This document shows positions 22,641 to 64,000 of a stretch of 64,000 nt of DNA, piece after piece (positions within the stretch are counted from its first letter, which is position 1; every line of letters starts with the position of its first letter). The position numbers and the translations under genes are program-made. This stretch comes from Bryoerythrophyllum caledonicum (Eukaryota > Streptophyta > Bryopsida > Pottiales > Pottiaceae): positions 12,588,501 to 12,652,500 of the forward strand of contig OZ020517.1 in NCBI GenBank assembly GCA_963971425.1. The letters are read 5' to 3'. Under the pieces are notes generated by a model. It saw nothing but the letters and a program-made list of their open reading frames with translations, was not told the origin of the DNA and did no database searches.

Positions 22641-22754
22641 AACTAAAATCGCAGATTCGCCACCACCAAGGCTATGGAGCGTCATCGTCGCTAGCAACAA
22701 GCCGAGTCGCTGCGAGGATCCTCGCACTCAGGCCGAGGCCGCGAGCTTCCACGA

Positions 22755-38439: not shown

Positions 38440-39130
38440 GGGGTAATATCCAAAATGAGACTCTGGAGGTGTTAGAACTCAATTTGCATGAAAGCCATGA
38501 GGAATTTGATTGTGAAATTTGAAGTTCAGCTTTGCACACATTCCGTGAACACTCTACAAAAATCAGAACATGATTTGGAGTTATAGAACTCATGGAAAAG
38601 CAAGGAGTACAACACAAATTTTGATTCAAATTTTTCTTTAAGAGATTCTTCATTGTTTTGTGATTGTTGATGATTCTCTCTCATTGCATACAAAACTTCC
38701 GTTTTAAGTCGTATAAGTTTGGAACATTTTTTTATACAATTAAGTAGACAAAAGTAAAACAAATTATCAATAATCATGTATAAATGTTTTCTTCACATAT
38801 GATATGTCAATGCGAAGCTATCAACCTAGTGCACATGTGAACCTCTTTTAATCAAAGTACAATTTTTTTGACAAGAATCTATTGATGGATAAAGTAGTAT
38901 ACCCTTCGAAGTCCACAATTTTCATTACCAATACACGGTAACTTTGAACACTATAATCTATTCCATCAACCGTTGGATGTTGTGTAAATTTTCTCCAAAG
39001 TTCAAATCATGGTTTGAGTTCAATTTTGTAAGTTTGGATACTAAAATTAGGAGTTTTATTTCCGTCGAAGTTAGTTTAAGGAAAAAAATCAACACATATC
39101 ATGGTTTTATAGAAACATGACCTGGGCGCT
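38440..39130 (+). repeat. Non-coding dispersed repeat, copy B
   Basis: Same family as copies at 17,580 and 39,230. It ends in the phrase CTGGGCGCTAAAAGG (about 39,122), which matches the end of copy C (CTGGGCGCCAAAGGG, about 39,911). Copies B and C are in direct orientation about 100 bp apart, so they may come from tandem insertion or from LTR-like flanks of a very small element. Confidence 0.75.
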
Positions 39131-39229
39131 AAAAGGCGCTAAGAGGTACTTATGGGGAGTTGATGAAGAGAGCTCCTAGGGTTGTGATCCGAAGGAGAGG
39201 TGAAGGCAATTTAACCTTCAATCCTTTGG

Positions 39230-39925
39230 AGCCCATGAGACCCAAATGTGGATTGTGGAGGTGCTAAATCTCAATCTGCATGACATCTATGAGGAATTAG
39301 GTGTTGAATTTCGAAGTTCAGATTTGTGCACACATTACATGAACACTTTGCAAAAATCAGATCATGAATTGGAGTTGTATTTCATACACATGCAAAATGA
39401 TCTGGTCTTAAATTTTGATTGAAATTTGTCTTTAAGAGATTCTTCCTTGTTTTGTGATTGTTGATATCTTTCATTGCATACAAAACTTCTGTTTTAATCT
39501 GTATAATTTTGGAATATTTCCGTATACAATCAAGTAGACAAAAGTAAAAAATTCATTAACAACCATGTATAAATATTTTCTTCACATATGATATATCATT
39601 GCCAAGCTATCAACCTAGTGCACATGTGAACCTCTTTTATTCAAAGTACAAAAATTTGTGCAGGAATCTATTGATGGATAAAGTAGTACACCCTCCAAAT
39701 TTCACAATTTTCACTCCCATTATATAGTAACTTCACACACTATAATTTATTCCATCAATCGTTTGGATATTGTGCAAATTTTCCCAAAGTTTAGGTCATG
39801 GTTTGAGTTCAATTTTGTATGGTTAGATACTAGAATTAGGCATTATATTCTCATGAAAGTGAGTTCAAAGAAAAAATCAAACACATTTCTTGATTTTGCA
39901 TGAACATGAACTGGGCGCCAAAGGG
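39230..39925 (+). repeat. Non-coding dispersed repeat, copy C
   Basis: Same family as copies A and B. It shares with copy A a segment around 39,375-39,420 (TTTCATACACATGCAAAATG) that copy B lacks, so C is nearer to A there. No coding sequence. Confidence 0.75.
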
Positions 39926-41153
39926 TTAAGATGTAAAGATTTGTCGGGGACCACATACACGGATACATATTTTACACTTAGAATACAAAAAATGAATTAA
40001 TATCTAGCAAGACATGCATCTTTGAATTGAAGATTCTTCAACTAACAACTTTCATTTGGAGGTCATTTCAATATCTGAAGCTTATCATGTTCAAATACAA
40101 CACCATTTTGCAACTTCCCTAACATGTAGTAGAAATCCCACTATTGCTCTGCTTGCTCGCCATTAGCATCATTCCTGGGTTCGTTGGCGTCAAATACCAT
40201 GCGCTCAATACGCAGGGCTTCTCTTTGGTCAAGTTCAAGCTAAGTCGAGGTACGGGACGGGCATCCTCACCTGATGCAAGTTACCAGGCTCCTGTAGAAC
40301 GCGTGCTCTGATCCAACGGAACAAAGGTAGGTGAGAAAATGATGTACCATTTGGTCCCCGCGACCACCTCCGAAATGGCTTTCTCGAGGGGTTGAGCATG
40401 CATTCTTTGCTGTAGATGTTGTGATGGCTGTCATGGTGTGGGGGAGTTGTGTTTGTGAGGTGTAAGGCGATTGTTGAGCGCTAGTTGTGATGGTTGTTGA
40501 GTGCTTGCTTGGCTTGAGTGCCTATGTGCATGAACGGTGCCGATTTCCTACAGCAAAGGGTGAAGGGTGGATGTCTTCGAGATCCCCTCGCCCACGCTGA
40601 CTATTTACGCTCTAATTCAGCATTCAGAAAGTTTGAGCACCCGCACACGTTGCTTTATGGAGTTGTCTGTACCGAAATGAACACGTATTATTAGGAGTTG
40701 GAGAGGCCACCGACTCACAACACCGGGGTAGCGGGGGATCACTTGTCTCCACGAAGTCTAGTTCTAAGTTTTACACAGAGATCGGTATCCCAGTGAAATA
40801 CCCAGGTGCACTTCTTCATATATCAATCACATACTCTGCGGTTGCATGTGTTCCCGTTGCATATGGTTCCGCAGATAAAATGCCGCTCGGATTATTTGAA
40901 GTGCACATCCGCCGGGTAACCGTAAGAGGGAGTGTAGAGGCCGCGCGCGCTAGTTCATACACTACATTCGATTTTTCTTTATATAGTATCCCTGTGCTAC
41001 ATGTGCTTTGTAAACTTCACTGAAGCGCTAGCCCACATGTGGTAGTGCACCCTGTAACTAACTTGGTTCGCTTCTCTTTTTTGTCCAGGAAACGTCGATT
41101 GGCCACCAACCTTAGATTGGCAATAGACCAGGCCAATCGACCAGGCCAATCAC
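39926..41153. other. Intergenic DNA between repeats and the Copia element
   Basis: Mixed composition. From about 40,140 the sequence is more GC-balanced than the flanks, but I recognise no protein or RNA. Just outside the Copia LTR the phrase GACCAGGCCAATC occurs twice in tandem (about 41,127-41,152). Confidence 0.45.
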
Positions 41154-41293
41154 AGATAGATTGTGCAATAGAGAAGATATTGTAAGTAGGAAGGCGAAGT
41201 TCTTAAGTACACAATGAAAGATCTAGATCTAATTCTAACACAATGAATGTGTTTACTGTACGATGATAGCCCAAGGATTTTGTATTACCAACA
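41154..41293 (-). repeat. Copia 3' LTR
   Basis: A 140-bp direct repeat of 47,979-48,118. On the element strand it opens TGTTGGTAATAC just after a purine-rich stretch (CAGGGAGGG). Confidence 0.92.
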
Positions 41294-44200
41294 CCCTCCC
41301 TGAATCTGGGGAAGGGTATTTGTATAGTTTGTCGTAAAATGACAGTTTTTAAGGATCAATAATGTTTGTATGGCTGAAATTTAGAAGTTGCTTGCATGAC
41401 GTGAATTTAAGACGGCCTAGAGCTTTTGTAAGCATGTCGGCCGGTTGGCGATCGGTAGGGGTGTAAAAAATGGTGACGAAGCCTCTTTCAACCATGTCCC
41501 GAACAAAGTTGAGATGGATCTCAAAGTGTTTGGTTTTGAAATGAAATTGTGGATTTTCGGAAATCTTAATTGCGCTTTGGTTATCACACATGAGCTAAAT
41601 GGGTATTTTTTTCTATCAAGTCCCAACTCTTGAAATAAAGTTTGAATCCATCTTGCCTCTTTTGTAGCCTCGACAAGAGAACGAAACTCGGATTCAATAG
41701 ATGACAATGCAATGCATGTTTGCTTCTTCGTGTTCCAAGTAATTGTGGTATTGTTGATCGTGAAAATATAGGCTCCTGTGGACTTACGTTGGTCTAAATC
41801 TCCCCCTCAATCATCGTCATTGTATCCAAGGAGGGAAAAAGTTTCGGATCGGGAATAGAAAAGGCCCTAAGATGTGGTCCCCCGTACATATCTTAGAATT
41901 TGTTTCGCTGCCTGAAGATGTGTCGTTTGTGGAGCAGAATTGTATCTTGATAACAGGTTGACAGCAATAGTGAGATCATGACGTGTAGTGGTAAGGAAGG
42001 ACAATTTACCGATAAGGGATCTGTAGCTAGTGGGATCAACATTGGAAGTTTCGGTTTGAGCAGAAGTTGTAAGTCCAACAGGTAAAGGCGTCTGGGTCGG
42101 ATTGCAGTCTTGCATTCCATATTCGATAAGTATGGATTTTGCGTATTCGGTTTGATGGATGTTGATTCCTTGTGGAGATAATGTGTACTCAATACCGAGA
42201 AACTTGGAAACGAGACGGAGATAGGTCATCTTCCATCGGGAATGGAACCTTTCTCAAAGCCATGATATTTTGATCGTGAAATTGCCAGTAATAAAGACAT
42301 CATCAACATATAGAATGAGGAGGATATATAGGTGCCCACGGCGTAGAAAATATAGGTTGTTGTGAGCATGAGTCGGTTGAAGGCCGTGTTTGAGAAGCCA
42401 CCGATTAATCTTGCGATTCCAGTTCCTTGCGGATTGTTTGAGGCCATATAACGATCGGTGTAGTTCACATACCAAGTGCTCTTGTCCTTTAACAATGTGC
42501 CCATGTGATTGACGCATATATACTTTCTCTTCTAAGTGACTCTTGAAGTAGGCGCTTTTGACATCCATGTGATGGATATCCCAACCCGTAGTTCCTGTGA
42601 GAGCGGTGACTATCTTGATGGTGTTGTATTTGGCTACTGATACAAAGGTTTCATGATAGTCTATACCTTCTAATTGTTGAAAACCTCTGGCAACTAGACG
42701 TGCTTTATATCTTTCAGGGATGTTGTCCTAGGCATGTTTCAACTTGAACACCCATTTGGATGAGATGGCATGATGCCCAGGAGGTAATTTTGTGAGTGTG
42801 CATGTCTTCATATCCTGCAAGCTGTCAATTTCCTTGTGCATTGCCTGGACCCAATTGGGGTCGTCTAATGCTACTTTATAGGTGGGATTTGAATTCTCCG
42901 TATTGCCAAGGAAACCTTCGGGTCTCACTGAAGGTCATTTTATACGATTGAAGCGACGGAGGGGTACTGGTGGTGGGTGACTTGGTGATGGATCCTCGGT
43001 CGATGAGTGCCACGGTGTGTTGGGATGAGGTGCGGACTCCGTTGTAGTCATGTGGGGTGAAGATGGAGGCGGCAAGGATAAATGTGTCACGTCTTGAGGT
43101 TGAGTACTATTAATGGAAGGAATGGTATCTTGTCTAAGGACCATCTGAGGAATCACAAGTCTGAAATGACCTTGTCTAGCTTCAGGTAGGGATGGAATGT
43201 CCGGGGGGGTGTGACATGAGTTTTTCTCATCGATCTTAATATCCCTGGAAATGATAATGCAATGTGTGTATGGACAATAACATCTACATTCTTTAGTGGA
43301 TTCATCTAAACCAAGAGGAATACAACTAGAGGCTTTGGGAGACATTTTGTACTTTTTTTCTTTTGGAATGTGGACAAAGACTTGTGTGCCGAATACATGA
43401 AGCTGGGATAAATCACGTTTCATACCAGAAAAAGCTTTGTCTGGTGTCGTGTTGGGTAAAACGCGAGTAGAGACTCAATTAATAATATAAGTGGCGGTCT
43501 TGATAGCCTCGGGCCATAAGTAAGATGGAATGTTGTGTTGAAAGCAAAGACATCAAGCCATCTCGACTATAGATCTGTTTTTGCGCTCCGAAACACCATT
43601 GCTTTGAGGAGTGTAATACTGTGAGCGTTCATGGTGAATGCCGGAATCAATGAGGAGTTGTTGGAAGGCTAAAGACATATATTCGGTGCCGTTGTCCGTA
43701 CGGAGTGTAGTAATCTTCTTTCCTGTCCGATTTTCTATGCGGTTTAAATTTTTTTTGAATTCGTCAATAACTTTGTCCTTGGTTTTGATAAGTGAATCGT
43801 CGATAAAAGTAACAAAATATCTTGCGCCATTTAATGATGGTTTCTTGATAGGACCACAAACATCACTATGAATAACTTAAAGGCTATCGGTAGTCTGTGA
43901 AGTACTTGGAGAAAAAGGAAAACGCGCTTGTTTGCCTTGTTGACATGTTTCACAAACTATGTCTACATAAGGTAACTTAGGTAAACCTTTCACAATGCTT
44001 TGATGAGACATGGTGTGTAATGTCTTGAAGTTAATATGACCTAGCCTTTGGTGCAAGAGAAGTACAGTGGGGTACCAATCAAAATGTCGTTTTTGAATTC
44101 GTAGTGAGAAAAATTTCAGTACTGCCAACTTTGAAAGCCTCCTGAGAGCTCAAAAATTGGTATTTTACCACGAAAGTCTTACCAAAGAATTATCTTTAAG

Positions 44201-44608
44201 TTAATTACATGTATGCCAAATTTCAAGGCCAAAAGATTAATAAAAAAAAGAAATCCACAATCTACCAACATGTGTAGTTGTGGGAAACAATGGGGGAAAC
44301 CATTTCATTGCTACCAACTTTGACACCCTCCCAACGGTTGAGAAATTTTCTATTTACGATGAAATTTTTGGCACAACATGATCTTTATGATAAAAACATT
44401 CATGCCAAATTTCAAGGTCAAAAAATTTATACAAAAAAAGCATTTACAATCTACCAATGTGTGTAGTTGTGAGATACCTTTTATTAAAGACATTGAAATT
44501 GTTGAAGTATGTCAAACAATCATGCTTCTAGATTGAAATTCTCCAAATGATGCAATCTCTAATCATAAATGATTCTCAAAAAAATCAAGGATAGCCAAAT
44601 TTAGTTGT

Positions 44609-44977
44609 GTGCACTTGTCACATCTCAAAGACTTGTTTCATTTTATGAGTAGAGTGCCACAGGAATTGCTCATGGAAGATGGCGCACCTGTCCATCGTAG
44701 CAAAGTATGTGAAGAATGGAGACAAACACACCTTTTGGAGAAGCTCGATTGGCCTGCAAATTCTCCCGATCTCAATCCAATTGAGAACCTTTGGAAGATT
44801 TTGAAAGATGCTGTGCAACATGGCCTAATATGTCCAAAAAATTTAGATGACTTGAAGGTAGTTATTGAAAGAGAGTGGAGGTTAATCAATGGTACAAAGC
44901 TCCTTCAACCATATCATTCTATGCCCTCTAGGTTACAAGCACTGATTGAGGCAAATGGAGGACATACACGTTGGTAG
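44609..44977 (+). pseudogene. Tc1/mariner transposase, C-terminal remnant (DD34E)
   Basis: The reading frame gives the C-terminal part of a Tc1/mariner DDE transposase: LLMEDGAPVHRS carries the second catalytic Asp and WPANSPDLNPIENLW carries the final Glu, with 34 residues between them (DD34E). The helix-turn-helix DNA-binding domain and the first catalytic Asp are absent; only about 140 bp separate this frame from the left inverted repeat, so the 5' part of the gene is deleted. There is no ATG at the start of the preserved frame. The element is therefore non-autonomous. Confidence 0.88.
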
Positions 44978-45152
44978 ATTGTAAATATTTTTTTGTATAA
45001 ATTTTTTGACCTTGAAATTTGGCATGAATGTTTTTATCATAAAGATCATGTTGTGCCAAAAATTCCATCGTAAATAGAAAATTTCTCAACCGTTGGGAGG
45101 GTGTCAAAGTTGGTAGCAATGAAATGGTTTCCCCCATTGTTTCCCACAACTA

Positions 45153-45787
45153 CACCAATAATGTTCATTAGTGTTCGCAACACTATTTACGAACGTAAAC
45201 GCTAAATGTCAATTACCCTACAATTGTAACTACATTATATGTCAATTTAAACACTAATTGCCAATTTCTCTAACTTTTGCCCTTGTTACATTTTAACATA
45301 TTGACATTTAGTGTTGGTTATGTAACAATTCATTGCAAGTCACCCAAATCTTGCCACATGCCAAATGATGATTTCGGGGGCAATTTTTGTCCAATTTGAG
45401 ATTTTTCTGTGCCTATCTGAACTGATTTGAAAAGACGCTTCCAATGGCACCTTACCCATCTTCAAATTCGTCTTAAATAAAAAGTTATAGCGAATATTTT
45501 TGGGCAGATTTCTAGAGTTTTGGTTGAAAGTTTGAGGAGGCATATCTTTATCAGTTTCGCACCAATTCTATCGAGTGAGGTGACTAGCTTATGTGTTTTT
45601 TCAAGGAGATTCCATCGGTATATGGTACATCTTCAAATTCGTTGTGATGCAAAAGTTATGAGCAATTTTGTTAGGCAGATTTTTTTGACATTGAACACTA
45701 AATGTAAACAAATTGACATTTAGTGAAGGTCAGGTCATAGGGGTAGTTACACTATTGGTGCCATAACACTAATGAACATTACTGGTG
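45153..45787. mobile_element. 635-bp TA-flanked MITE inside the Tc1/mariner arm
   Basis: The ends are inverted repeats CACCAATAATGTTCATTAGT and, at the right, the complement with one mismatch in the first 20 bases. TA lies on both sides (45,151-45,152 and 45,788-45,789). If the MITE is taken out with one TA, the flanks join into the phrase CACAACTACACATGTTGG, which matches the uninterrupted left arm of the host transposon near 44,270 on the opposite strand. That shows the exact insertion. The interior has no coding sequence. Confidence 0.9.
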
Positions 45788-47978
45788 TACACATGTTGGT
45801 AGATTGTGGATTTCTTTTTTTTAATTAATCTTTTGGCCTTGAAATTTTTATCATATGTTATTAACATAAAGAGGTTTTTGTTCCAAGAATTTCATGGCAA
45901 AAAAAAATAATTCAATCTTTGGGAGGCTGTCAAAGTTGGTAGCAGTGAAACAATTTCCACAGCTACCAATGTTGGTAGATTTTGGATAACTTTTTTTGGT
46001 GAATCTTTTGGCCTTGAAATTTGGCATACATGTAATTAACTTAAAGATAATTCTTTGGTAAGACTTTCGTGGTAAAATACCAATTTTTGAGCTCTCAGGA
46101 GGCTTTCAAAGCTGGCAGTACTAAAATTTTTCTCACTGCAAATTCAAAAACGACATTTTGATTGGTACCCCACTGTACTTTGGATCGCATCCGATCACTA
46201 ACTTGTACAAAATGGGCCTCACGAACTGGTGAGAGGTCTTACTGATATAAGCCTTTGTGCATCCTAGTTCCATGACCAATGATGTCTTGTTTATGTTCAT
46301 ATGTGATTAACACCTCCTTGCGGTTAAATTGGATATTGCACCCCTCATCCGCACTACGCCCAACCAATAATAAATTGCGAGGAATACCAGGCACATAAAG
46401 AACGTTCTTAAATTGCTTGTATTTCCCACTAGGGAAATTAATGCTTACATTTCCCTTTCCTGTGATTTTATGTGCCTCTCCACCGGCGGTTAACATAGAG
46501 GTGCTGCTGGTACATGCTTGGAAATCTTGCACTAGGTTTGAAATCCCAGTTACATGGTGTGTGGCTCCTCAATCTAGCACCCATGCCAGTCCCTCTTGAC
46601 CCATAGTGGTGTTTGCTTCAATCTCGTTGAGCTCACATAGATATGTTTCTAATACGCTTCCCGCACTCTCACTGCCACTTTTATATGAGTCGGAGTTGAG
46701 TTTTGAGTTTTTACCTTTAGATATGTTGTTTGCTTGCGCTTTATGCCGAGGTTGTTGATATTTGATCTTGCCCTCCAATGTCTTTACTCAGTCAATAGCC
46801 TTCTTAATGCAATCTCGGGCAAAATGTCTAGGTTCACCACAGTAGTGACACTCCTGCCCTTCTTTGCTGAGTCGCGGTGTTATTCACGGTCATAGGGCCT
46901 ACTTTGTCCGCAATCATAGGTGCGACCTTTGTTAGGGTTTCTGGAGGTAGGGGGGAGCCGCGTTGTCGGCCGTTGTTCGCTTCTTTGCGCGTTCTTTCTC
47001 CGCCCCCGTTCTGTCCGCCGCCGCCGCCTTGTATTTGCGCGCTGCCGCCTTGTGTTCGCGCGCCGCCGCCTTGTGCCCGCTGTCTATTGTTGGGTTTTCA
47101 CCGTTTCTAGCTGCTGCCGCCTCGCTCGTAGGAGTGGCGTTGAGTGCACCCCGATCTTGTGATCTCTTGATTCTCTCCATATCGATTCGTTGCTTGACCT
47201 CCTTGACGTCGCGATTGTTTCTTGAATACCAGTGCTTGTGCATCTTCTTCTTTATCTGCGTCCATCCTCAACTGCATCTCTTCATCAAGCAAACGTGACT
47301 CTATCTCTAGAAAAGATGATAAGGTGTCTCTTCCTCTTTGTGTCCCGCAGAATAACTTGTATTCCGATGACAAAGAGTTTAGTAGTAACAAGGTGCATAG
47401 ATCTTCACGGATTTCTACCTCCATACCCTTAAGCTGGTCCATGATGTCCTTGACCTCAATGATGTATTGTTCCGTGCTTGTGTTGTCTTCCTTCCGCAGT
47501 GACACTAATTTCCGCAACAACATGAGCCTCCGAGATCCAGACTTGGATTGATAGCGGTCTTCAAGCGCCTTCCACATGAGATGCAGATCTTCAAATCTCC
47601 ATACAACAGGTATCACGGAGTCTTTGACTGAGTCTGTAATTGCCTGCAAGGCGATCTTTCTCCCTTCTCTTTGAGCTGTAGCTACGTTTCTAGATCTAGG
47701 TTTGGTGCAGTAGATCCACACATTGTTCTTCTCTAGCAAATGCTTTAGCCTATAAGACCACACCTGATAGTTCACTTGTCCATCTAACCTACTGGTCTCT
47801 GAAATCATGATCTCTATGTCTCTCCTAGGAGTGGTGCGTGGTGGGGCGTTAGTGCCTAGCCCAGACGACACTTCACCAACCATGTTGCTCTCGTCAGAGT
47901 TTGCCATGCTAGATGTGCACTACAGATCTAGATCTAATTACACACTAGGTGAGAGCTAGAACCTACACTCTGATACCA

Positions 47979-48118
47979 TGATAGATTGTGCAATAGAGAA
48001 GATATTATAAGCAGGACGGCGAAGCCCTTAAGTACACAATATAAGATCTAGATCTAAGTCTAACACAATGAATGTGTTTACTGTACGATGATAGCCGAAG
48101 GATATTGTATTATCAACA
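47979..48118 (-). repeat. Copia 5' LTR
   Basis: A 140-bp LTR bounded TG...CA on the element strand, immediately followed by the Met-type primer-binding site at 47,966-47,978. LTRs this short are at the low end for Copia elements. Confidence 0.92.
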
Positions 48119-49084
48119 GCCTGGCGCAAGCACACTTGGAGACAAGAGAGCTCTAGACTAGTTGGCTTGCACGATGGTACTCTTAACCTCACCCTTGCCC
48201 CTCGCCTTCCAGGTACTGACTAGAACAAGATACTGAAGAACAAATGTACTAACCTTCTATTTGCTACACGATGCTTCTTTGGGCACCTGGAAGCCGGCAA
48301 GTGTGCATCTCTCACATTTCTGGATGCCGTACGTGCTGAGATATTTTACTTGTTATGGATTTGCAGAGAGTTTGTAGGCTTCCCTTGATCAGTAGGATGG
48401 GCTTGCATCAACTTTATGCCTCTTCGTATCTTATGTCCTTACACTCCTCCCTTGAGGAGCTAGAGGATACTTTCGTTTCGTGCCTATCAACTAATTTCAG
48501 CATTTCTCAGCGCCTCTGTATATGCCATGCCATATGAATGTATCATGGAGGAGGGAAGATAGATACTTGTAGAAGAAAAAACGCTTGTGTAAACTGCATA
48601 AGCAGCTCTACTTTTCATTTGTCGTGCACAAACACGTTGTGCAAAGATAACATTGTGCCAACACGTGAGGGCGCACAATTAGAGACAAATGCGGAGCAAT
48701 GGTGACTAAACATCACCGTTGCCTCCATATACAACAAAAATTATGGTTTACAGAAGAAATTATCAACCACTTAGCAACTTAGGTTGGAGGAAAAGAAATA
48801 AATACTGAGACAACAAAGTTAGGTAATTGGTCTACAAGGACCCCTTTACTCGCCCTCTTTGCCCGTGATGAAGTCCTTTTCACACCAGCAAACCACACAA
48901 TTATAGTAAACTGGAGGAACAAACGATAATTAAAACCTCTCAAGTCCAAAAAAATCAACTCAATCTACAGAAAAGACACTAAAAGACCTTATAGACAAAG
49001 GATAGGCGGAGCCCCATGGTTGATTGCCTCCAACACATTTTAATGGCTAGACCTTGTCTACGTAGACTTTTAATGTTCTAAACA
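48119..49084. other. Spacer between the Copia and Ty3/gypsy fossils
   Basis: No gene supported. If the Ty3/gypsy fossil kept a 3' LTR it should lie here, but I found no match to sequence beyond its other side. Confidence 0.45.
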
Positions 49085-49345
49085 CTATGGACACGACCAT
49101 TGAGCCATTGATACTTCTAAAAGAGGTCGAGTTAGGCATTCTAGATGCCATCCCACAGAATATAGGTCACAAATGACCATTGTGGTTGTCCGTTTGGCAC
49201 TACCACACAAATGACACCGTAATCCAACAAAAATGTGAGAAAGTCCGGGGTGTACCATCCTATCAATGTGTGGCAAGTGGCAAGGTGCACAGTTATCCGT
49301 GTGATCCTTTAGCAACTTACCATCACAAGCGTCCAATAGTAACAC
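49085..49345 (-). pseudogene. PHD finger at the 3' end of the Ty3/gypsy fossil
   Basis: One frame reads CHLCGS, then TTMVICD, GWHLECL, and ends WSCP, the Cys4-His-Cys3 layout of a PHD finger. PHD fingers usually bind histone H3 tails. Many Ty3/gypsy integrases end in a chromodomain that steers insertion; here a PHD finger takes that place. It belongs to a dead element copy. Its twin follows the integrase of the fossil at 11-16.7 kb. Confidence 0.75.
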
Positions 49346-50360
49346 AACCGAATCCTTTGCTCACGAACTCGCAAGATTATCCGTCATATTGTCACATCCA
49401 AGGTGGTGGGCGCTAGTTGGTGCAAATACAGATAATCTCCAAGAGTAAAATGCCGTACTTGTGGTTGGTAGCCTCCTCCCTGTACTATAGCATAGCGCAA
49501 CGTAACTGGTGTTGGGAGATGGAGAGGTTTTCTGATGCCATTGGTATCACCTGCTTACACAACTTTGCTCGTTGCTCATACACTTGAGCCCATGTGTCCG
49601 AGTTGTCCATGTTAGCCAACACCATGTCAGCATCTACTTGAATGGCCTTTGGTAGAATCAAATGCCGTCCAAACGACAAAAAGTAAGGAGAAATGGATGC
49701 CACTGGCGCTTGCTTGTTAAACCAAAAGCCAATGGCTATCTATCGTAATTGCAAGTTTCAATCCCGGTGATGTCCCTTCTACAAACTATACTTCTGAAGC
49801 CCCCTCTTGCCGGTCTGCACCATGTGCTCTGCCTATCCATCCTCTTTGGAGTGATCTCTTGAAGTAGTGCAATGCTCACTGATCGCTTGCTCACACAATA
49901 TTTGAAACTCACCTAAGAACTCATGTCTTTGGTTTGTAAGCACTTCCGTTGGAGCTCCAAAGCAACTCATTACACAATCAAGGAAAAAGTAAGCGGCTAC
50001 TTCATTGAACTTGTTAGGCAAGGCTACCAACTCTATCCATTTTGAAAAGTGTTCAATGATCACTAACACATACTTGTTGTGTCGAGGTGTCACTCGTAAT
50101 GAGCCTCTAAAGTCCAAGTTGTACTTGTATCCCAAGCCCCTAACTGGCAATGATTGTAATTGTAGCATTTGAGCGTAAAAAGACGCTTGCACACAATCAC
50201 ACACCACGTACCAGGCTACCACAGCTTGAACTTGTGATTGCATTCCTTGCCACCAAAAATGAATATGAAGCAAGCTATAAGTCATCCGCACTCCAAAGTG
50301 CCCAAGGTCTTCCTATGTATTCTTGATTAGCTTCACTTTCCCCGATGGAGCGGGTACCAA

Positions 50361-50666
50361 GGTTGTCACGTACGTCCAAAATCCAAGCCCTTGGACGTCT
50401 TGGATGTCACGTTCGTCCAGAAGCGTCTGTCCCAATGTCCGGATGTAGATAAATTGGCGGTTGCCCAATTTACCTCCAATCGCGGCCTGGTCGCTGAACG
50501 ATCGCACACCGACCGGGCCCCGACCACACTGACCATCTAGCAACTAGGCTGGAACTGTGGTGACCGGCTATAAAAGAGGTAAAAAAGTTTTTTTTTAAAA
50601 ACTCGAAGTTACAAACATCCCGCGGAGCTCCCGGACTGACATCCCGTCCCGTCCGTCGAAACAACC
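50361..50666 (+). repeat. Small repeat with GGTTGT...ACAACC ends, copy 1
   Basis: It starts GGTTGTCACGTACGTCC and ends GAAACAACC. An inverted copy lies at 53,888-54,130. Shared blocks include ATAAAAGAGGTAAAAAA and GGAGCTCCCGGAC, and both are rich in GTCC/GGAC words. It interrupts the pol region of the Ty3/gypsy fossil between RNase H and integrase. It looks like a MITE with short (6-7 bp) inverted ends; the target duplication is unclear. Confidence 0.65.
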
Positions 50667-52689
50667 TAGGCCGGTACAACCTTTTTTGGTACCATCCGAT
50701 CACACCCTCTAAAAGGTGAGTCTTCTCCAACGCAAATCGCAAGCCGTACAAGTAGCATCTGCTTGATTTTGATTTTGATTGCGGCTATGGCTGTTGGCAT
50801 CCATATTCACCAATCCCGCTACATGCATCACCTTGAAGTCGTACTCCATCAACGTCAAGGCCCATCCCGCTAGTTACCTTGTCAGTTTGTCTAATTCCAT
50901 CAATCACTTCAAAGGTTGATGATCTGTAACCAGCAGAAACTAGTTACCATAAAGTTAACACCGAAAATGAACAATTGCCCATATAGCGGCCAAACACTCC
51001 CCTTTATATAAACTATATAGAGCCTCCGCATTGTTGTTGCACGAACAGGCGTACGCAATCAACAAACTCCATCCCATCGTCATCCATTTGCATCAATTCC
51101 GTGCCGATTTCCAACGCGCTCCAATCCATATGTAATTGGTCTATTCTTCCTGCTATCGGCCTTCAAAGTACAAGTGCTATTGCTAAGCGGTCCTTCAACC
51201 GCTACAAGGCCGCCTCTTGCTCATCTCTCTAGATCCAAGGTTGATCATTCTTTGCCAACATGGTCAATGGTTTTGCAATAGCACTGAAAGTCTTTACAAA
51301 CTTTCTATAGTAGATACATATTCCTAAGAAATTAAGAATGCCCGTAGCCTACCTACATCTTATGCTCTAGGAATAGACATCACTACTTTGACTTTGCTAG
51401 CTACCACACCCAATCCAGTTGAGTATATGATGTGGCCTAAGTACTAAATGCGATTAAAGTAGAATTTGCATTTATCAAGATGCACCTTCAAACCGCGGAG
51501 CCTTAATCTAGCAAACACCTCCATCAAGTGTAGCCTATGTTGCCTTTGATTTTTGCTAATGACAGTGATGTTGTCATTGTAGCATCTTACAGAGACCAAG
51601 CCCAACAATACTCGGTCCATAATCCTTTGGAATTTGGCAGGCGCATTCTTCAATTCAAATGGTAAGAACTTCCATTGGAACAACCGGTCCTTCCCTTCTT
51701 TGTCAATGCCCCAGAACGTGGTCTTCTCCTTGTCTTCCTCTTTCAGTCCAATCTGGTCGTATTTAGAGCGCAAGTTCACCGTATTGAACACTTTAATGTG
51801 TTCAATGGCCTCAATTTATCCTCTGGTGTTGACATGGCATGACGGTCCGACTTGATAATTTATTAATTTTCCTGTAATCTCCGCACATCCTCTTCTCGGT
51901 GCAATTATCATAGATATCCTTCCTAGTTGGCATGAGCGTTACAGATGCATACTTATAATCCGGTGGAGCCAACTCCACTAGCCCTGTAGCAACCAACTCC
52001 TCCGCACGAGCGCAAACCATCTTCCGCATTACATCATTGTACTTGTATGGCTTGCGGTAAATTAGTACTTTGTCCGTCGAGTTGATACGCAATTCTTACC
52101 CCTTCAACACTCCGAGATCTTCTAGACTAAAGGCAAAACAATCCATGTAATCCTTGAAGAACTCATGGTCTTCTCCCTCAACTGCTCCATCTGTGAGGCC
52201 TACTATTGATTTCCAAGTATCCTTGGTCACTGCCTCCATTGGTTCCTCTCGAGTAGGATTATCCATCTTTCGTTGCTATTGAATGCCAGATGGAGTAAGC
52301 GCTTCTTCCTCCATCTCCATCATGCTCCCAAGTCCTTCCAACTGGCTTAGTTTGTCAATCTCTTCCATTTGATGAGCTCTATGTTCTTCCACAAACATCT
52401 TCTCTACAACTTCTTCCAAATCTATCATCTGGTGGATTAATCCCCTTCTTTGGTTCTAATCATCCACTCCATGGTAAAGATCCTCAGCCCGAGGCATCAC
52501 AAGAAGATTTGCAGTGTTCCACATGTTCCATGGATGAGGTGCCAAGGCACTCTTGCCCGGAACCACTTTGTCTGCCACCCTGACGAAGACACATTGTTCT
52601 ACAGAAGCCTGCAATTCATAATATCCTATGTAGCTTGTCAAACTAGAAGCTAATCGTATATGGTTGGCGACCATCATCAAGACAATCTA

Positions 52690-53576
52690 AGCCAAACAAT
52701 TTAAATCCATTGGTTGCTCAAGTAAAAATTGTCGTTGTTGCTTCAAAATGCTAGGCATTTGGTGGTGCCAGTGGAAAAGCCCATGGCTCTCTCCCACTCA
52801 TATGCGTTTGGCTTCACCATCTCTTGAGACAAGGAATCCCAAACAAAGACAAGACCGTTGTCTTTAAAGGCATACGACCGAGCAAAACTAACCAATATCG
52901 GCAGTGCCCTACGCGGTTCTCCCTTGTGGTTAATTATTGCTAAAGGTGCTTGATTGTCATGATAAATACGCTGAGGCTTTCTATGAGGATCCAAAATATC
53001 ACTCACATAGGCATCCGGCCGTTTGATACGACCCACCGCGGACTGTAGCAACTCCTGAGGTGCCATATTGATTCACCCCAAACAAAGGCAATGTGCTCGC
53101 GATCCCATAATTGCAATAGTGTCTAAGAATAGTGGCAAACCCAGAGTCTAGTATATGCAGCGCATGCCCTTCAAGGTCCTTAACCTAGAGTTGCTCACCA
53201 CATGTATGTTCTCCACAATATAGCTTGTTTGTTGCTTCTAAGATGGCTGAAGCAATTGTAATACTTGGATCATGTCGTAAAATTGGGCAGAACGAGTGTT
53301 TTTAAACCCGTTCTGATGTCCTGCCATAGACATGCATTGACAAGGCCAACCCCCAATGACAAGGTCCACATGGCCAACACAATGAATGTTCTTGGCTGAA
53401 AGCAAGACAATATTAGTTGATACCAACAAACGTGGAAAATGAAGTCTTGATGGCACTAGTGGCCAACAAGTCCTCAATTGCCGTGAATGCCATTTGACTT
53501 TGTACCTTGCAGCTTCAATAACATCTACATAGATAGAGCATTTGACCTTGATTCCCACTTGGAATACTGCCGCCAA
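52690..53576 (-). pseudogene. Cytosine-5 DNA methyltransferase part of the Ty3/gypsy fossil
   Basis: Two neighbouring blocks carry C5-methyltransferase features in the right order. The first (53,576-53,238) contains IYVDVIEAARY, in the position of the cofactor-binding region, and VDLVIGGWPCQ, the catalytic Pro-Cys motif IV, followed by AGHQNG and a RSAQFYDMI segment. The second (53,066-52,743) contains LPILVSFARSYAF and WERAMGF, typical of the target-recognition and late conserved region, and just beyond it PMDLN at about 52,700, corresponding to the last conserved motif. The domain is broken like the rest of the element. Subfamily (Dnmt3/DRM-like, Dnmt1/CMT-like or bacterial-like) is not decided. 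Position directly upstream of RT on the same strand argues that it was part of the element. Confidence 0.8.
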
Positions 53577-53580
53577 GTCA

Positions 53581-56304
53581 CTTCAAATCCCCTCGAATAA
53601 TTCCAACAAGACAATACCATCGTCCGGTGCCTTCAAGTGAATGGTAGAAGTGTCCAGAGATGGTCCTAAGACTTGGTCCTCTCTAGGATCCTCTTTCACT
53701 TGTGGGAGCATTGAATGCTACCAAGCATCTTCTATTACTTGCTCAACATTCTTCTCAAGCTGAGCCATGGTGCTTCACGTTGCTTCGATTCCAGATTCCA
53801 ACACTTGTGTGATCCATATGGGCATCCACCTCATCAAGTGTGGAAGTAGCCATAGGAAAATCGTCAATACCCGCTTGAAACATATTAGGTTGTTTGGACG
53901 GGACAAGACGTTTGTCCGGGAGCTCCACGGGACGTCTATAACTTGGAGAAAAAAAATTAACTTTTTTTACCTCTTTTATCACCAGTCGCCACGACCGTTG
54001 CTTGGTCGTCAGGCAATCGGAGGAAAATTGGCCGATCGCCGATTTACGTGCGTCAGGACGTTGGAACGGACATGTCGAGACGGACAAGATGTCTAGGACG
54101 TCCGAGAGCTTTTGGACATATGTGACAACCTAGCTTGAAACCATGGTGGTTTCACATCCTTACCTCCCAAGCACACAAACACATTCGCAAGGTTACCAGT
54201 CACAACTTGAACAAATAAAGTTGGCAGTGGGATCTACTGCTCATCTCCCACTTCTCATTGTAGTCTATAGCTTGTTGTTTTCTCTCAAAAATCCAAGGTG
54301 AAGTCCATTGCATATAGCACTGCCAAATCCACTACCTAAGACATCATTTGCTGGCTTCCGTGACAATAGCCTTCACCTTCATAAAGCTTGCATCCTCAAC
54401 ATCATCTTCATTGATTTTAATATCAACTCTGTTTTTGTAATGCTCTTAGCGTGCTCTATACCTTGCATAGACGTGCTAATTGTCTATGAACACTTCTTTG
54501 AAGTGTCCCCAGTCGAGGCCAATCCTTCAATGGCAGAAGTTCCAAGCATCAATGGTTGAGCTTTTGAATCGGAAAGCACACGTTGAGGTACAAAAAACTT
54601 CCCCTTTGGCCCAACAAATTGGAAAATGCCTTGGAAGTTGCCAACCACTTCCCATGGTCAAAAGGTCCACCACTTCCCATGGTCTTAGACACTGACACAT
54701 ACTTTGCCACACATCCGGCCCCTGCAATTTCACGTCGTGTTGTCAACAGAGCCGGATTCGATGCTCTTCAAACTTCGTATTACGCAAACAGCAAGATCAT
54801 CTGAATATCCTCCAATTACCTTTGATCCATCCCTAGAGCAAGGGTTTCACCAAACAATCGTATCTAGCGTTGAAACAAGTTGCTTCAAGAACAGAGCTTC
54901 TCCACGGCTATAACCTTTGGATCATTATCCGTTCCCTTGTGCTTGCCTTTGCTCCAGCACTCTAGCCAAGTTTGTAGGGGATACGGACCAACACAGCTAA
55001 GACAAGAAAAAATGGACACACTTCCCATGTCACGCACGGTATCCACTGTTGTTTGACCTTGTGGTAATCATCGTTGCATGCTCGACAACGCTGACCCTGG
55101 AAGTGTGAGTGTCACCGTTGCTCGACTTCCACTTCACTAGTGTAGTCACTCACCTTTTGCAGACCAATTCCATTACCCTTGCTAGAACATACACTTGCGC
55201 CTTCTACATCCAAATTAAAAACAACTGGAACACTAATGTATAACCACAATTACTAAGCAACGTCCTCTTAATCTCATTAGGTGTACTATAATGTCACGAT
55301 TACACCCATCTTCGTGACATGATCTTTCTCAAATAACAAATAAGAAAAACTCACTTATACCACATAACAAGTCAAGTCCATGTTATTCTTAAAGAATGCT
55401 AGCATGATCACGATGTGGCTAATGGTGTGGAAACAGACACTCACCTCATCACGTGGGAGACTCAACTTGAGAAAGATGAGTCTTCCTCAATCACACGTGG
55501 GGATCATTTGGGCTCCAAGTTCCAAATCAGATGTCAAAAGACACCTCCATTTTTAATTAATTTGTAAATCTTTTAATCTCTTAAACATGGTTTTAATACG
55601 TCGTTTATAGTTTTCCAATGTATGTGAAGTTAATAAAAAAGCTTATAATATTGAAAAATACAAAGTATATAAATAATTACATAATTTATCAATTGTATTT
55701 AAAGTTTGATATTTTGAAATATACCAATATAAATTGATATATATTTGAAATGGTTTATCAATTTGATTTATTTTACTACCAAGATCTGATTTGGAAAAAC
55801 TCAATAAATACCTTTTTAAGAAAATCACAAAATATACTATTAGATAAATAAATAATTTAAGCTTTAATTGTAGAATTTCATTTTACCTTTTAAATTGGAC
55901 TTATATGTACACTTTAAAATTACCTTTGCAATATTCAAGATATATTTGTTGATTAAATTTTGTATCTACAAATATCCTCCAAATTTTCCTACTATGCACA
56001 TTATCACGCTTTGAAAAATGTTTCAAAACCTATCAAATATTCTATTAATATTCTATCAAGTTTTTTTTAAGTTCTAGTTATTCTTGCATCTTTATATTCT
56101 TGATAAATGTTTTATGATAGAATATCTAAAACCTACAAATATTGAATTTAGAATATGATATGTCCAGGCATGAGCACAAGGCACACTAAATATCCTTAAA
56201 AGCATCAAATATATAGGTTTTAATTCAAGTCAACTCCAATATAGATATCAAAAGTGGTTTTTAAAAATTAATTCAATTATTAATTAATTCCTAAAATTTG
56301 AAGA
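53581..56304. other. Possible leader of the Ty3/gypsy fossil, then AT-rich DNA
   Basis: From 53,581 to about 55,540 the composition resembles the adjacent fossil and may include its gag or LTR, but I recognise no domain. A candidate terminus is TGTCACGAA on the minus strand at about 55,319, unsupported by a partner. The phrase CCACTTCCCATGGTC occurs twice near 54,640-54,685. From about 55,540 the DNA becomes very AT-rich with nothing assignable. Confidence 0.4.
53888..54130 (-). repeat. Small repeat with GGTTGT...ACAACC ends, copy 2
   Basis: Reverse-orientation copy of the repeat at 50,361-50,666, about 60 bp shorter. It lies just upstream, on the element strand, of the methyltransferase part of the Ty3/gypsy fossil. 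Confidence 0.65.
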
Positions 56305-57220
56305 TTCCAAGTTGGGCTTTACAAATCTTAGGCATGTATTGACAAATGCAATTTATATTTTGGATTCTTGGAATTTCATATAATGATGCAAGAAGGTAAG
56401 ACCTATATATTATTATGGTTTAGACTCTCATTGAACCTATTAAAAAAACTTCATGTCATCGTAAATAATTTTTTTCAAAGGGTAGACAAATTCCAACAAT
56501 TTGCTACACTCTTTTATAAAATGCAAGATTTTTTCAAAGAGGTAAATAACATGATTTTATTTGAGATTCTAAAAATGGTAAACTTCCACATTATAAAACT
56601 TTCACTCCAAGAGGAGTCAAAGTTTTCTCACCTTGATTGACAAGGTGTAAAGAAAGCTTTTTCATTTTCACATAGAAATTCAAGATCGTGGCTTTACTTT
56701 TCATTTGTTTTTTCTACTTCACAAATAAGTACAAACCTTTGTTTTAGACAATTGAATTTTAAGATTATAAAGAGATGAGCTTATTAAAAGTCATAATGTG
56801 TTTGGACAAAAAAATTAACCTCCCTTTGATACATATTTATTTTGAGAATGCTTCATTTTTCCTCTACCTGTTAAAAATTGGTTTACAAGGATTAACACCA
56901 TGTACACTATTATTAATGGTATAAAATTTAAAGTTTTGAAGTGCAAAAATGTGACATCAAGTTGAGTCAAAATTTGCCAATCCACTTAACACGAGAAAGT
57001 CAGAAAAACAATTTTCTTCACTTCAAACACTATAATCTTCCAATTTGTGTGGTCAATTGTTATAAAAATTTGTAAGCATGTTTTTGGATAATACAGATTC
57101 ATAAAGTTCTTGTAGTTCCAGATGGACATTATTTTTATTTTATTTTTATTCTTTGCTTAAGAATGAACAATTTTGAAGTGATTTTGGTGAAATTTTGACA
57201 AGGATGATTAAGGGAGAGCC
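56305..57220. repeat. Dispersed AT-rich repeat, copy 2
   Basis: Partner of 770-1740 in the same orientation; see that entry. Shared order of blocks over about 900 bp makes chance similarity of AT-rich DNA unlikely. Confidence 0.6.
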
Positions 57221-58126
57221 AAATATCCTATCAAGCCGATATCCTATGAAACCAACACCCTATCCTAGTGCAAGACCATGTTAAGTGATACTTGGATAGG
57301 TGATACTTGGATATATGTTTACTTATTGGACTCCACCTTTGCTCCTCAAGGATCTACACCTCTGAACATATCATAAAGATAATAATATTGCTCACATATT
57401 CACCAACACTACCGTAGCTTAACCTCAAATTTGGCTTTGATTAATTAAAAAAAGGCATGCCAAAATAATCAGGAAATCATCAAGCGAAGATGTTGAAATT
57501 GAAAAAAAAATTAGTAAACAAGATTTGCAACCTTGAGAGATGTCAAAGGCAATTGGCGCTTGGAAAAGCCTTTTATCTTTCATGAAACCCACATGTAGAA
57601 TCCAAGTTGAAGCCCCAAGGTGTTGGGTTCAAACCCTTTTGTCGTCAAAGTATACCAAACGTAGTAATCTATGATCTTTTGCCACAATTGCTAAATTGTT
57701 ACTTTGAAGGCCAAACGGCCGTTGAACCTAAGGTTAGACTAAGGTACCTCTTAGTAGAATCCAATACCCTACCCTTCCCAGGACCCCCAAAGTTGACCAT
57801 AAGGAAATGATCACTTTTCAAAACACACCCGAAAAGAAAGGTAGAAAAGTGGATGATCCATAAATTTACGCCAGGTGTAGATTATGAAGAATAACATGAA
57901 GGCCTGTGGTACATTTTACTTTCGTCCAGTCGCCGGTCTGAAGTGCAAGAAGCAGACCTCCGCCTTTGACTTGTCGCCGCGCATCCCACCGAGTAAATCA
58001 TGCACACTCGCTTCTGCACCAGTTCATGCGCAATCGCCCCATTGAGCTCGCATTTCGTCACTCAAATGACGATGCAGTGCCTCAAACTCCATCGCTCACC
58101 GTGCCCCTGATCAGGCACCTGCTTGG
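57221..58126. other. Upstream region of the SIRT7-type gene
   Basis: AT-rich to about 57,890, then GC-richer toward the gene, consistent with a promoter and 5' leader. No TATA box is convincing. Confidence 0.45.
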
Positions 58127-60328
58127 ATGAGAAGGCGAGGCGGTGATGAGATGAATTGTGAGAATGGGGCGAGCAGGCGGAGCTCCCGGGGCTGCGGAGA
58201 GACGGAGGAGGAAGAGGGCGGCGCGGCGTTGCGGGCCAAAGTGAGGCAGCTCGCGGCTTTTGTGCGCGAGGCCAAGTATGCTGTGGTAAGATTTTCTAGG
58301 AATCAACGTAATCTGCAGTTAGGGGAGAGTGAAGGATTGAAGTGTGACATTTGAATTTTAGGGTTAGCTTGCTCTGTTTTGGGAGGTTTGGAAAGTTGGA
58401 TGATTTGCTTTCGGATTATTGTGATTCTTCGGTTATTGATGTCTAATCGTATCTTTTGTTGAAGTCTGGACCCATCTGAGAAAGTTGGGTCGAAGTTAGG
58501 TTTTGTCTTGCTCTGTTTTGGGGACTTGGAAGTTGGATGCTTTGCTTTCGGATCATCGTGTTGCCTGGTACAAATTTTTCATGGTGTCGATCTCCGTCTG
58601 AGCTTGTTGAAGCCTGGAGTCTCTGAAGTTTGAATTTCAGGGCTAGGTTGTTCTGTTTCCGGGGTTTTGGATGTTGGATCAATTCGTCGAAGGTGATTGT
58701 GTTATTATATCAGGGTTTGAACTGACATGGTCCATTGCAGGCGTACACAGGAGCAGGCATTTCGACAGCAGCCGGGATTCCTGATTTTCGTGGACCATCT
58801 GGCGTCTGGACCCTTCAAGCCAAGGGCAAAACAGTGGCCGAGCCGGACTTCACCAAGGTTTGATCGTCTTTGGAATTGTGTAGTGCGCAAAACCTGCAAA
58901 TTTTACGCTTGGTGTTGGTGTTGATGTTTTTGATGTATTAGAGTTTTTTGTCAAGTCACTTCAAGTTTCATTACTAGATCCATTAATAGAAGAGCTTCGT
59001 TGGTGGTCCTTCGAATAAGCATGGGAGAGTTTGGTGGTCTCTGAACTAGTCGCAAGTTGCATGAGATACCATGAATATTAGCCGCCTTTCTTTCCTTGGA
59101 GCTGATTTTAGACAGTGATAACTCAAAAAGAGGGGGTATCTCTGGGTGAGAACTCTACTATTGTTCGGACCTCCTGGTCATGCACTCTTCATTCTCCCTC
59201 TGTTTCGACGTATGCAGTTAAGTCCAACATTGACTCACGATCTCCTGAGGACTCTACTAGAGAGGGGCCACCTCCACCACATCGTCACACAGAACATCGA
59301 CAGCTTGCATCTGCGGAGCGGTGTGCCGCAGGAGAATCAAAGCGAGCTCCACGGGAACTATTCTCTGGAGACATGCCCGGTGTGTGACGCTCGCTACTTC
59401 CGACCGCATGCCGTGTGGAAGGGGCTGACGACCCCCACCACAAACCCTGCAACTGATGCCAGATCTGGCAGAAGGCGAGTGCGCAGTGTCGATCACCGAA
59501 CCGGCCGCTTGTGTGCAAAAGAGGGCTGCTCTGGAGAGCTTGAGAATTCCGTAGTGCTCTTTGGTGAAAGCTTGCCAGCAAAGGTACATTTTGTAAAGTC
59601 AAAGTTTGAAAAGGATACCCTTCTTTTTCTCTATAATTCTACGATGAATAGCTATTAAATATAGTAGTCTCTCAACTAGAAGTCTTTGATCAAGTGTGGA
59701 AGAGCTTGGTGGTCTGCAAATCAACAGGAATAGTGTCCTCTACTTTATTTGTTTGAATGGGGTCACATTCGTCTGTCTTTGGAAAGCAGGCGTCGCCTTC
59801 GTTTCAGAATTAACGACAATCATCATTTGCGTTGCAGGAAGTGAACTCAGCTTGGGAACATACAGATCGGGCGGATTTCGCCCTTGTTCTGGGCTCTAGT
59901 TTGAAAGTAGGACCCGCTTGTGACATGCCTGCACAAGTAGCTAAGAGTGGTGGCAAGCTTGTCATTGTTAATTTGCAGCGCACTTCTTTTGACGGACGGG
60001 GCTCCCTGGTACGCATGTGTTTCGTTTCATGATATTCCAATTGCTGTTTGTACTTTTACCTGCAAGTCAAGTCAAGGTCATCTTTTTCCGGATTGTGCAG
60101 GTAATTCACGCGCGTTGCGATGAGGTGATGCGCTTGCTTGCAGAGGAACTCGATCTCGAGTTACGATCAAGTATCTCGGAGGGAGAAAAATCTTCTCTGA
60201 GGCAACTTTCAAAACATGATGGCCAATCAGTACATGAAGATATGTCGACTGAGTACAATGACCAGAAGCTCCAAGAATTTGAGCGGAGTTTTATGATTCA
60301 AATGTCAGGTTCTGCTCCTCCTATTTGA
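58127..60328 (+). CDS. SIRT7: SIRT7-type NAD-dependent sirtuin, five exons
   Basis: Predicted NAD-dependent protein deacylase; animal SIRT7 is a nuclear/nucleolar enzyme acting on histone H3. Exons: 58127-58285, 58741-58857, 59218-59583, 59838-60008, 60101-60328, all GT-AG, giving 346 aa. The NAD-binding [20 protein letters not shown] starts at residue 57. [12 protein letters not shown] precedes catalytic His137 (SELHG). Zinc Cys are 145, 148, 191 and 196 (CPVC, CAKEGC). GSSLKV and VNLQRT complete the NAD site. SIRT7-like marks are [19 protein letters not shown] before the core and [18 protein letters not shown] after it, both close to animal SIRT7 and unlike the plant SIRT6-like SRT1. The spacing between the Cys pairs is long (42 residues), with a basic insert. 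The start is the first ATG; nothing upstream in frame is better. The gene appears intact. Confidence 0.9.
58345..58705 (+). repeat. Three diverged tandem copies in sirtuin intron 1
   Basis: Units at about 58,351-58,425, 58,493-58,560 and 58,629-58,702 share GTTAGCTTGCTCTGTTTT, GGAAGTTGGATG and TTTGCTTTCGGAT phrases, with increasing divergence in the third. Together they make up most of the first intron. Confidence 0.65.
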
Positions 60329-62736: not shown

Positions 62737-64000
62737 TGTTTAGTGGGTAGGTACCCCATAACCAACGACCAAAAGTAAGGGTCTTGACTAATAGCAAACC
62801 TCCATTTGGAGCTAAGTTGGTGGTAACTGTCCACTTGGACTATCTCTCATGTATATCATCAGTCTCTATCTAATACAATTAAGCGCACTAGCGCAGACCT
62901 TGCGTTACTTAAGTTGCGACATCTTTGTACTTCAACATGGTATCAGAGCGACGAGTAGAGTAGAAGCATAATACTGTTAATCTAGAGAGAGCATTGAGAT
63001 AGAAGCATTCAGCAGTGCACCGCACTTGATATCACAGTAGCTTTTCAAAAGCAGTCGGAGGGGCGTTGCACCCAACTTTAAGACAGGCTTGCATCATGAC
63101 AGAAACTGCCGCAGTCAAAGAGGGTGAGCAACTGAGAAGGATAGACAACTTCCACATATGGAGCTTGAGAACAAAGAGATTACTGAGGGCCGAGAGCGCG
63201 TGGTATATCACCGAGGAAGAGAGAAAGCCAGACACGTTTCCAATCACTATGGAAAACGAGAGCATATCAGAGGTCGTCTTTATCAAGCAAAAACCTCTAG
63301 TGTGTCAATTGATAGCTAACTCTGTGAGTGATGATATTGTAGATCTCATTGAAGATCACACATATCCAGCTGTCATTTGGAAGGAACTCAGAGCATTGTA
63401 CGCAGCTGGAGACAAGTCGCATGTCCTGATGTTGAAGGCCCAGCTAAACTTGTTCAAGATGGAGGAAGGAGGCTCGGTGGATGAGTATTTGGAAAAACCT
63501 CATGAACTGCGGAATCACCTCACAGCTATGGAAGAGAAGATAACCGACAACGACCTCAACGGCATTGTGCTGAATGGCCTTCCGATGTCATTCAAAAGCT
63601 TGGTTATTACACTGGCACAACTTGACCCCGACAAATCATTCGCACGACTCAGCTCCAAGTTGCTCACTGAACAAAACAAGCGCGAGCATCGAATTACACT
63701 TCACGGAGATGCAGAAGCACTAACAACAAGTTTTGACAAAAAAGCATCAATCAACAACAACCAACAACATACTGAGAGAGGCAGAGGACGTGGGTGTTGG
63801 GGACGCCCTCCACCTTGGTGGCGCATGCCATCACCCTGGGACGAGGACCTTCCAAACCTCCAGGCCGAGGCTACTCCAGGGATCGTGGCCCACCATGGTG
63901 ACCACCTGCAGCAGGACATGTCACGACAAACAGATCAACTATAATTTTCTACAACTGCGACAAGAGCCGCCACATTGCACGAGAATGCAAAGAGCCTCCA
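62737..64000 (+). mobile_element. Ty1/copia element, 5' part, truncated by the window end
   Basis: A Met-type primer-binding site TGGTATCAGAGC lies at 62,938-62,949, directly after a CAACA end at 62,937, marking the end of a 5' LTR. A TGTT at 62,737 is a plausible LTR start (about 200 bp) but cannot be checked without the 3' LTR. The gag region runs from ATG 63,096 with the IDNFHIWSLRTKRLL block and a long helix-rich capsid-like region of the retrotransposon gag family, then basic, Gly/Arg-rich sequence and a CCHC-knuckle-like segment at about 63,960-63,990. It shows about one break in the visible part. It is a different family from the Copia at 41-48 kb, judged by LTR sequence. Confidence 0.8.
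62938..62949 (+). promoter_or_regulatory. Primer-binding site of the right-hand Copia element
   Basis: TGGTATCAGAGC, the usual plant retrotransposon match to the 3' end of initiator tRNA-Met, placed exactly after the presumed LTR end. Confidence 0.88.

Follow-up and report, generated by a model that had tools for sequence, protein, structure and literature searches.

The 64,000-nt stretch of contig OZ020517.1 analysed here (the window, whose numbering gives all coordinates) contains on its minus strand, from 53640 to 49082, a decayed series of coding segments in which, when read in three frames, a C5-cytosine methyltransferase is followed by reverse transcriptase (RT), RNase H and integrase of a Ty3/gypsy element and, finally, by a PHD finger. 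A preliminary description of this DNA, with the element span named beforehand as 49085-53580, had presented it as a Ty3/gypsy fossil with a cytosine-5 DNA methyltransferase, recognized by the peptides VDLVIGGWPCQ, WERAMGF and PMDLN; all three are present on one strand (at 53369-53337, 52796-52776 and within 52716-52699, respectively). Motif I of the enzyme (53612-53586) is located just outside that range, and the PHD finger and two nested insertions had been left unmentioned. Pfam scans were performed in two ways: with ten open reading frames (ORFs), and then with longer frames in which X was placed at the stops.

The methyltransferase region, from motif I to presumed motif IX, occupies 52745-53640 on the minus strand. 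The 298 codons of its frame include 4 stops, compared to 14 and 13 in the other frames; in 2 of 1000 dinucleotide shuffles of this segment, the best frame contained no more than 4. Its motifs are traceable in this frame without an intron. PF00145 was matched by the ORF 53582-53238 with an E-value of 1.2e-9, the aligned part being 43 residues around motif IV, and by the frame with X at stops with 1.6e-8. The match to TIGR00675 (8.4e-12) spans motif VI, with 45 bits being below the curated cut-off of 100.65. Motif I, motif IV (GGWPCQ, 53354-53337, with its PC) and motif VI (53216-53205, with EN, reading VENI instead of ENV) follow each other in the canonical, unrearranged order, I and IV coming before VI. 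Statistical support, as judged from PF00145, TIGR00675 and the DRM alignment described below, is limited to motifs I-VI, and it is for these that the earlier assignment of C5-methyltransferase blocks held. The assignment of WERAMGF and QPMDLN (the latter at 52716-52699) to motifs IX and X is presumptive and relies solely on their place and pattern, because the stretch from motif VI onward scores like shuffled sequence, and presumed motif VIII (53105-53085) was placed by position only. The predicted structure of the methyltransferase frame was not usable, with a mean pLDDT of 30.8.

Downstream of the enzyme and on the same strand, as had been stated before, RT, RNase H and integrase are present in the order of Ty3/gypsy elements. 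The RT palm (51444-51818) matched RVT_1 with 5.5e-18 as ORF and 7.1e-19 as frame with X at stops, and RNase H (50751-51312), which includes frame changes, matched RT_RNaseH with 5.1e-16 in the latter form. The integrase (49485-50339), comprising the H2C2 zinc-binding domain, the catalytic core and a C-terminal tail, gave Integrase_H2C2 with 1.9e-8 and 1.4e-7 for the ORF and the frame with X, respectively, and rve with 2.2e-6 and 4.2e-5, both of the latter below the Pfam cut-off; both RNase H and integrase could also be aligned with a second relic in the window (see below). The palm is preceded, in a different frame, by a presumed RT N-terminal part (51811-52400), whose peptide MCGDYRKIN (51888-51862) resembles the N-terminus of gypsy RT. 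This piece aligned to the RT N-terminus of L006, a Wolbachia plasmid record with a gypsy-type RT 37% identical to the fossil RT, at the place expected before the palm, and 5 of 1000 shuffles were as good. With moderate confidence, the RT-side end of the linker described next may therefore be taken as an RT N-terminus.

Between presumed motif X and the RT palm (52724-51811), 5 stops interrupt one frame of 304 codons, as against 24 and 18 in the other two, and none of 1000 dinucleotide shuffles had 5 or fewer stops in the best frame: the stretch between the enzyme and the palm is one formerly open frame. It starts with presumed motif X, identified by position, and the linker (52456-52724), which share their frame with the presumed RT N-terminus. 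One frame change is located between presumed motifs IX and X and another between the RT N-terminus and the palm. Since the shared frame is nearly open, Pol most likely included the enzyme, and the intact element most likely made its methyltransferase in this form. This, together with the common strand and the order of the parts, supports the earlier reading, and the methyltransferase was most likely the element's own.

The PHD finger (49082-49360) is C-terminal to the integrase. PF00628 was matched by the ORF 49360-49085 with 3.2e-5, just above the cut-off, and by the longer frame with 3.5e-4, below it, while among the sequences of solved structures 38 matched with an E-value up to 0.01, including PHD chains of PHF12 (2.8e-5), UHRF1 (3.2e-5), KDM5B (9.4e-5), DPF3 (1.2e-4), WSTF (1.5e-4) and ATXR5 (2.2e-4). 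Several proteins of this match list, UHRF1, KDM5B (PHD1), ATXR5 and PHF21A, are readers of histone H3 unmodified at K4, others are not known as such; it is a guess by analogy that the fossil finger might have preferred unmodified H3K4 as well.

The gypsy copy at 53640-49082 is dead, because it has stops in the methyltransferase and the linker, frame changes ahead of the PHD finger and in the methyltransferase, RT and RNase H, and two insertions, one within it and another just upstream. The inner one (50360-50668), located between RNase H and integrase, is a short nested insertion that has the ends AGGTTGT/ACAACCT, and its inverted second copy lies just upstream of the methyltransferase (53886-54131). 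The inverted pair 50557-50668/53886-53992 was considered as possible DIRS-like repeats and rejected, since the AGGTTGT/ACAACCT ends and the positions fit nested insertions; it was the sole repeat pair, and no DIRS-like repeat arrangement was found. Further upstream, a possible 5' continuation of the element on the minus strand (54137-55500, with an inferred boundary) has between 21 and 31 stops in each of its three frames of 454 codons, and no domain was recognized there by the Pfam scan. The GC content, calculated in 250-base steps, was 0.38-0.51 across 49001-55500 without a break at the methyltransferase-RT junction, and near 55500 it dropped from 0.39 to 0.22, which may be the 5' limit of the element.

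A second, related gypsy relic was identified by collinear alignment on the plus strand at 11187-16657, with RT, RNase H, integrase and PHD finger in the same order. Its identity to the fossil was 42% over 102 residues in RT, 45% over 98 in integrase and 41% over 56 in the PHD finger, the latter segment, at 16.4-16.66 kb, following the integrase as it does in the fossil. The Pfam scan of 7500-12000 gave RVT_1 with 5.9e-12, and the relic is interrupted in RNase H (12045-12895) and in integrase (13613-15614). The methyltransferase was seen in one of the two gypsy-PHD relics of the window.

Searches for relatives elsewhere used collections of viral, bacterial and archaeal sequence, and the absence of relatives therefore means little. 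In the viral_contigs collection, three protein queries, consisting of the methyltransferase ORF, the integrase ORF and an RT alignment of two rows, produced 11, 12 and 77 pattern matches, respectively, with no confirmed relative among them; the DNA patterns of the ERAMGF region and of MGF..MDLN had no matches there, each of them matching the window once. Two viral_contigs sequences found with the NCAPCHLP pattern (L001, L002) and three genome_contigs sequences found with the MGF..MDLN pattern (L003-L005) were discarded as chance matches: tblastn with six fragments of the fossil detected no element in any of them, and the sole E-value below 0.01 came from the 12-residue pattern stretch itself. 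Phage records had no match to the fossil RT, plasmid records a single one (L006), and the RT N-terminal piece had no match among plasmid records. With the methyltransferase ORF, 393 phage records were found at an E-value up to 0.01, all of them below 60% identity, which is the ordinary signal of C5 enzymes.

The family of the enzyme was approached by comparison with solved structures. For the whole frame the top match was a plant DRM, 4onj_A (5.6e-6 over 137 residues covering motifs I-IV), followed by HhaI (1.4e-4), DRM2 (1.6e-3), HaeIII (0.03), DNMT3B (0.036) and DNMT3A (0.059), and none of the 51 sequences matched with an E-value up to 10 was named DNMT1 or DNMT2. The record of 4onj_A is labelled as DNA methyltransferase only, and we take it to be tobacco DRM; it also ranks first when a typed plant DRM is the query, ahead of chains named DRM2. 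DLVIGG is common only to DRM and DNMT3A among five reference enzymes, and the fossil shares with the plant DRM/DNMT3 enzymes the DLVIGG..PC signature. It differs from them in having PCQ, the form of HhaI, DNMT1 and DNMT2, instead of the PCN of DNMT3A and DRM, and in its location beside Pol, to which it was probably fused. DRM proper was ruled out because the motif order I, IV, VI is unrearranged, in contrast to DRM, where motifs VI-X come before I-IV. It is also conceivable that the source of the element's methyltransferase was a C5 enzyme of bacteria or viruses and not a plant-type DNMT3/DRM. The PCQ motif would fit such an origin, as would the solved-structure matches of the short ORF, where bacterial HhaI came first (4.8e-5, with 4onj_A at 0.0035), and its second place for the whole frame. 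In local alignments against the five references, with 300 shuffles each, the part before motif VI had a Z score of 14.5 with HhaI and 11.6 with DNMT3A, but the highest value, 20.0, was obtained with DRM (DNMT2 and DNMT1 gave 6.3 and 3.8). Taking also into account that the phage matches were weak (the best E-value among the 20 listed of the 393 being 3e-5), we consider a bacterial or viral source unlikely.

Overall, the fossil is probably a decayed Ty3/gypsy element of the LTR type, whose Pol once consisted of C5-methyltransferase, RT, RNase H, integrase and PHD finger, and which is of the same kind as the algal element KnitGypsy-Dnmt3. Several results weigh against this. Neither gag nor aspartic protease was detected by Pfam at E-values up to 1 upstream to 56000, the 5' part having possibly decayed past recognition, and no long terminal repeats were found in 46000-58000, where decay has affected the element and its downstream side is taken by a copia element. 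The RT N-terminal piece had no Pfam match even at an E-value of 10, and no RT was present among its solved-structure matches. From motif VI onward the Z scores were only -0.7 to 0.9, no better than shuffles against all five reference enzymes. An unrooted tree of six sequences and 114 columns joined DNMT3A with DRM (92.8/90) and put the fossil outside of it, between this pair and DNMT1, DNMT2 and HhaI (87/76), leaving the family undecided; this position therefore neither favours nor rules out a DNMT3 origin. The enzyme was seen in a single copy: no second one was present in the window, with a finer tblastn of positions 1-47000 likewise finding none. In particular, the second relic had no PF00145 in 7500-12000 at E-values up to 1 and no tblastn methyltransferase match in 1-47000. 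Copies lacking the enzyme had been named at the outset as evidence against its membership, and this relic indeed shows none, but its homology starts only inside RT, the RT N-terminus also not being seen and the 5' part being lost, and for this reason it cannot decide the question.

One alternative is a chance neighbourhood: the gypsy pol would adjoin by accident a decayed methyltransferase gene, whether the host's own or a retrocopy, or else a fragment that arrived by a separate insertion. The window is full of nested insertions, including copia, a DDE-transposase piece and inverted-repeat elements, where such a meeting might occur, and the presence of just one enzyme copy and the moderate support for the adjoining RT N-terminal piece would be in line with it. 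It would, however, leave to coincidence the nearly open frame that links presumed motif X with the RT palm, along with the common strand and a GC content without break at the junction, while a DNMT inside a gypsy Pol ORF has a published precedent, as far as the element is described in PMC5890265. A chance neighbourhood is therefore, in our view, improbable, and the methyltransferase-bearing gypsy element is the preferred explanation.

The surroundings of the fossil are repeat-rich. Downstream of it lies a copia element (41155-48129) with gag and RVT_2 and with terminal repeats at 41155-41297 and 47980-48122, which are 92% identical; the copia region also includes a DDE_3 transposase piece (44573-44977, presumably Tc1/mariner-like) with repeats around it. 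A repeat family of approximately 0.7-1 kb has three copies of about 80% identity at 17580-18557, 38450-39148 and 39220-39935, two of them adjoining, and 63030-63944 is a Gag ORF of another copia-type element. The region 22000-38000 is GC-rich (0.52-0.61) amid AT-rich DNA, and its plus strand carries, at 29-36 kb, an SWR1/SRCAP-type remodeller (SRCAP, 3.1e-143), which we assume to resemble plant PIE1, followed by a Myb-domain ORF. An ORF for a SIR2-family deacetylase was found at 59122-59658. The window had no Rfam match at the gathering score and no tRNA.

The claim that retrotransposons with DNA methyltransferases occur in dinoflagellates and charophytes was confirmed by PMC5890265. According to this paper, the gypsy element KnitGypsy-Dnmt3 of Klebsormidium nitens encodes a Dnmt3-related DNMT within its Pol ORF (de Mendoza 2018, PMC5890265), and its DNMTs are intronless, under purifying selection and accompanied by DIRS-like repeats. 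The fossil resembles the published description of this element in the gypsy Pol domains, the unrearranged DNMT and the lack of introns. KnitGypsy-Dnmt3 has the DNMT in the Pol ORF; in the fossil the frame is nearly open across the junction, but changes inside the enzyme and RT. The fossil copy is dead, and no DIRS-like repeats such as those reported for KnitGypsy-Dnmt3 were found in it. It also has a PHD finger, while PHD has no occurrence in the main text of PMC5890265 on KnitGypsy-Dnmt3. The SymbioDIRS-Dnmt3 and SymbioLINE-Dnmt elements of Symbiodinium, described in the same passages, similarly combine a retroelement with a C5-methyltransferase, but they belong to DIRS (with a tyrosine recombinase) or LINE, in contrast to the fossil with its rve-type integrase. 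In the passages of PMC12344493, DNMT3s inside retrotransposons are given for streptophytes and dinoflagellates, with LTR Copia and DIRS being named, and those of PMC12730594, PMC11244446 and PMC10538959 contain no further gypsy element with a DNMT. A PHD finger in a gypsy Pol was likewise absent from the literature passages retrieved by PHD searches, which is no proof of absence. Related combinations exist in other groups. Chromoviruses, i.e., gypsy elements with a chromodomain, carry a domain of the histone-reader type C-terminal to integrase, at the place where the fossil has its PHD finger. PHD domains of CR1-like LINEs were reportedly described by Kapitonov and Jurka in 2003; these are retrotransposons with a PHD finger, as is the fossil, but of the non-LTR type.

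As part of Pol, the methyltransferase would have travelled with the cDNA and the integrase. It might then have marked new cDNA or the fresh insertion de novo, which would have passed as already marked self DNA, while the PHD finger might have guided the integrase according to how histone H3 was marked. Such activity and self-methylation are suggested by analogy with the described systems. The SymbioDIRS enzymes performed de novo CG methylation in yeast, and methylation of cDNA as self-marking or protection was proposed for DIRS elements, with slower transposition being considered as well (passages of PMC5890265). The enzyme of KnitGypsy produced no methylation in yeast, a result called inconclusive by its authors in the passages of the same paper and a further point against the reading preferred here. 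The ratio of observed to expected CpG was 0.65 in the gypsy fossil versus 0.68 in the neighbouring copia element, and CpG depletion was rejected as a trace of self-methylation: it is non-specific because the copia element is depleted alike. The role of the enzyme might instead have been to reduce transposition for the benefit of the host, or to counter DNA viruses, with no hiding of cDNA involved. Both uses have already been proposed, as the passages of PMC5890265 and PMC6338049 state, although CpG is depleted to a similar degree in the copia element; we regard them as a rather unlikely, but not negligible, alternative. More far-reaching, and likewise rather unlikely, is the possibility of a gypsy lineage whose Pol would combine a chromatin writer with a reader, the N-terminal methyltransferase marking the cDNA or new insertion and the C-terminal PHD finger sending the integrase to silent chromatin. 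Its hosts, which might be land plants, would belong to a lineage stated to lack such elements.

The fossil probably belongs to a known kind, the methyltransferase-bearing gypsy element, which is rare and was described before from an alga; what it would add is a single Pol that both writes DNA methylation and reads histones. Transposons are normally silenced by cytosine methylation, and a transposon with its own methyltransferase is therefore a paradox, reported from few lineages. The range of the phenomenon would be wider, or the phenomenon older, if the host is not Klebsormidium. With a PHD finger on the same Pol, the element would lend itself to asking whether retrotransposons not only select their landing sites by chromatin state but also write that state.

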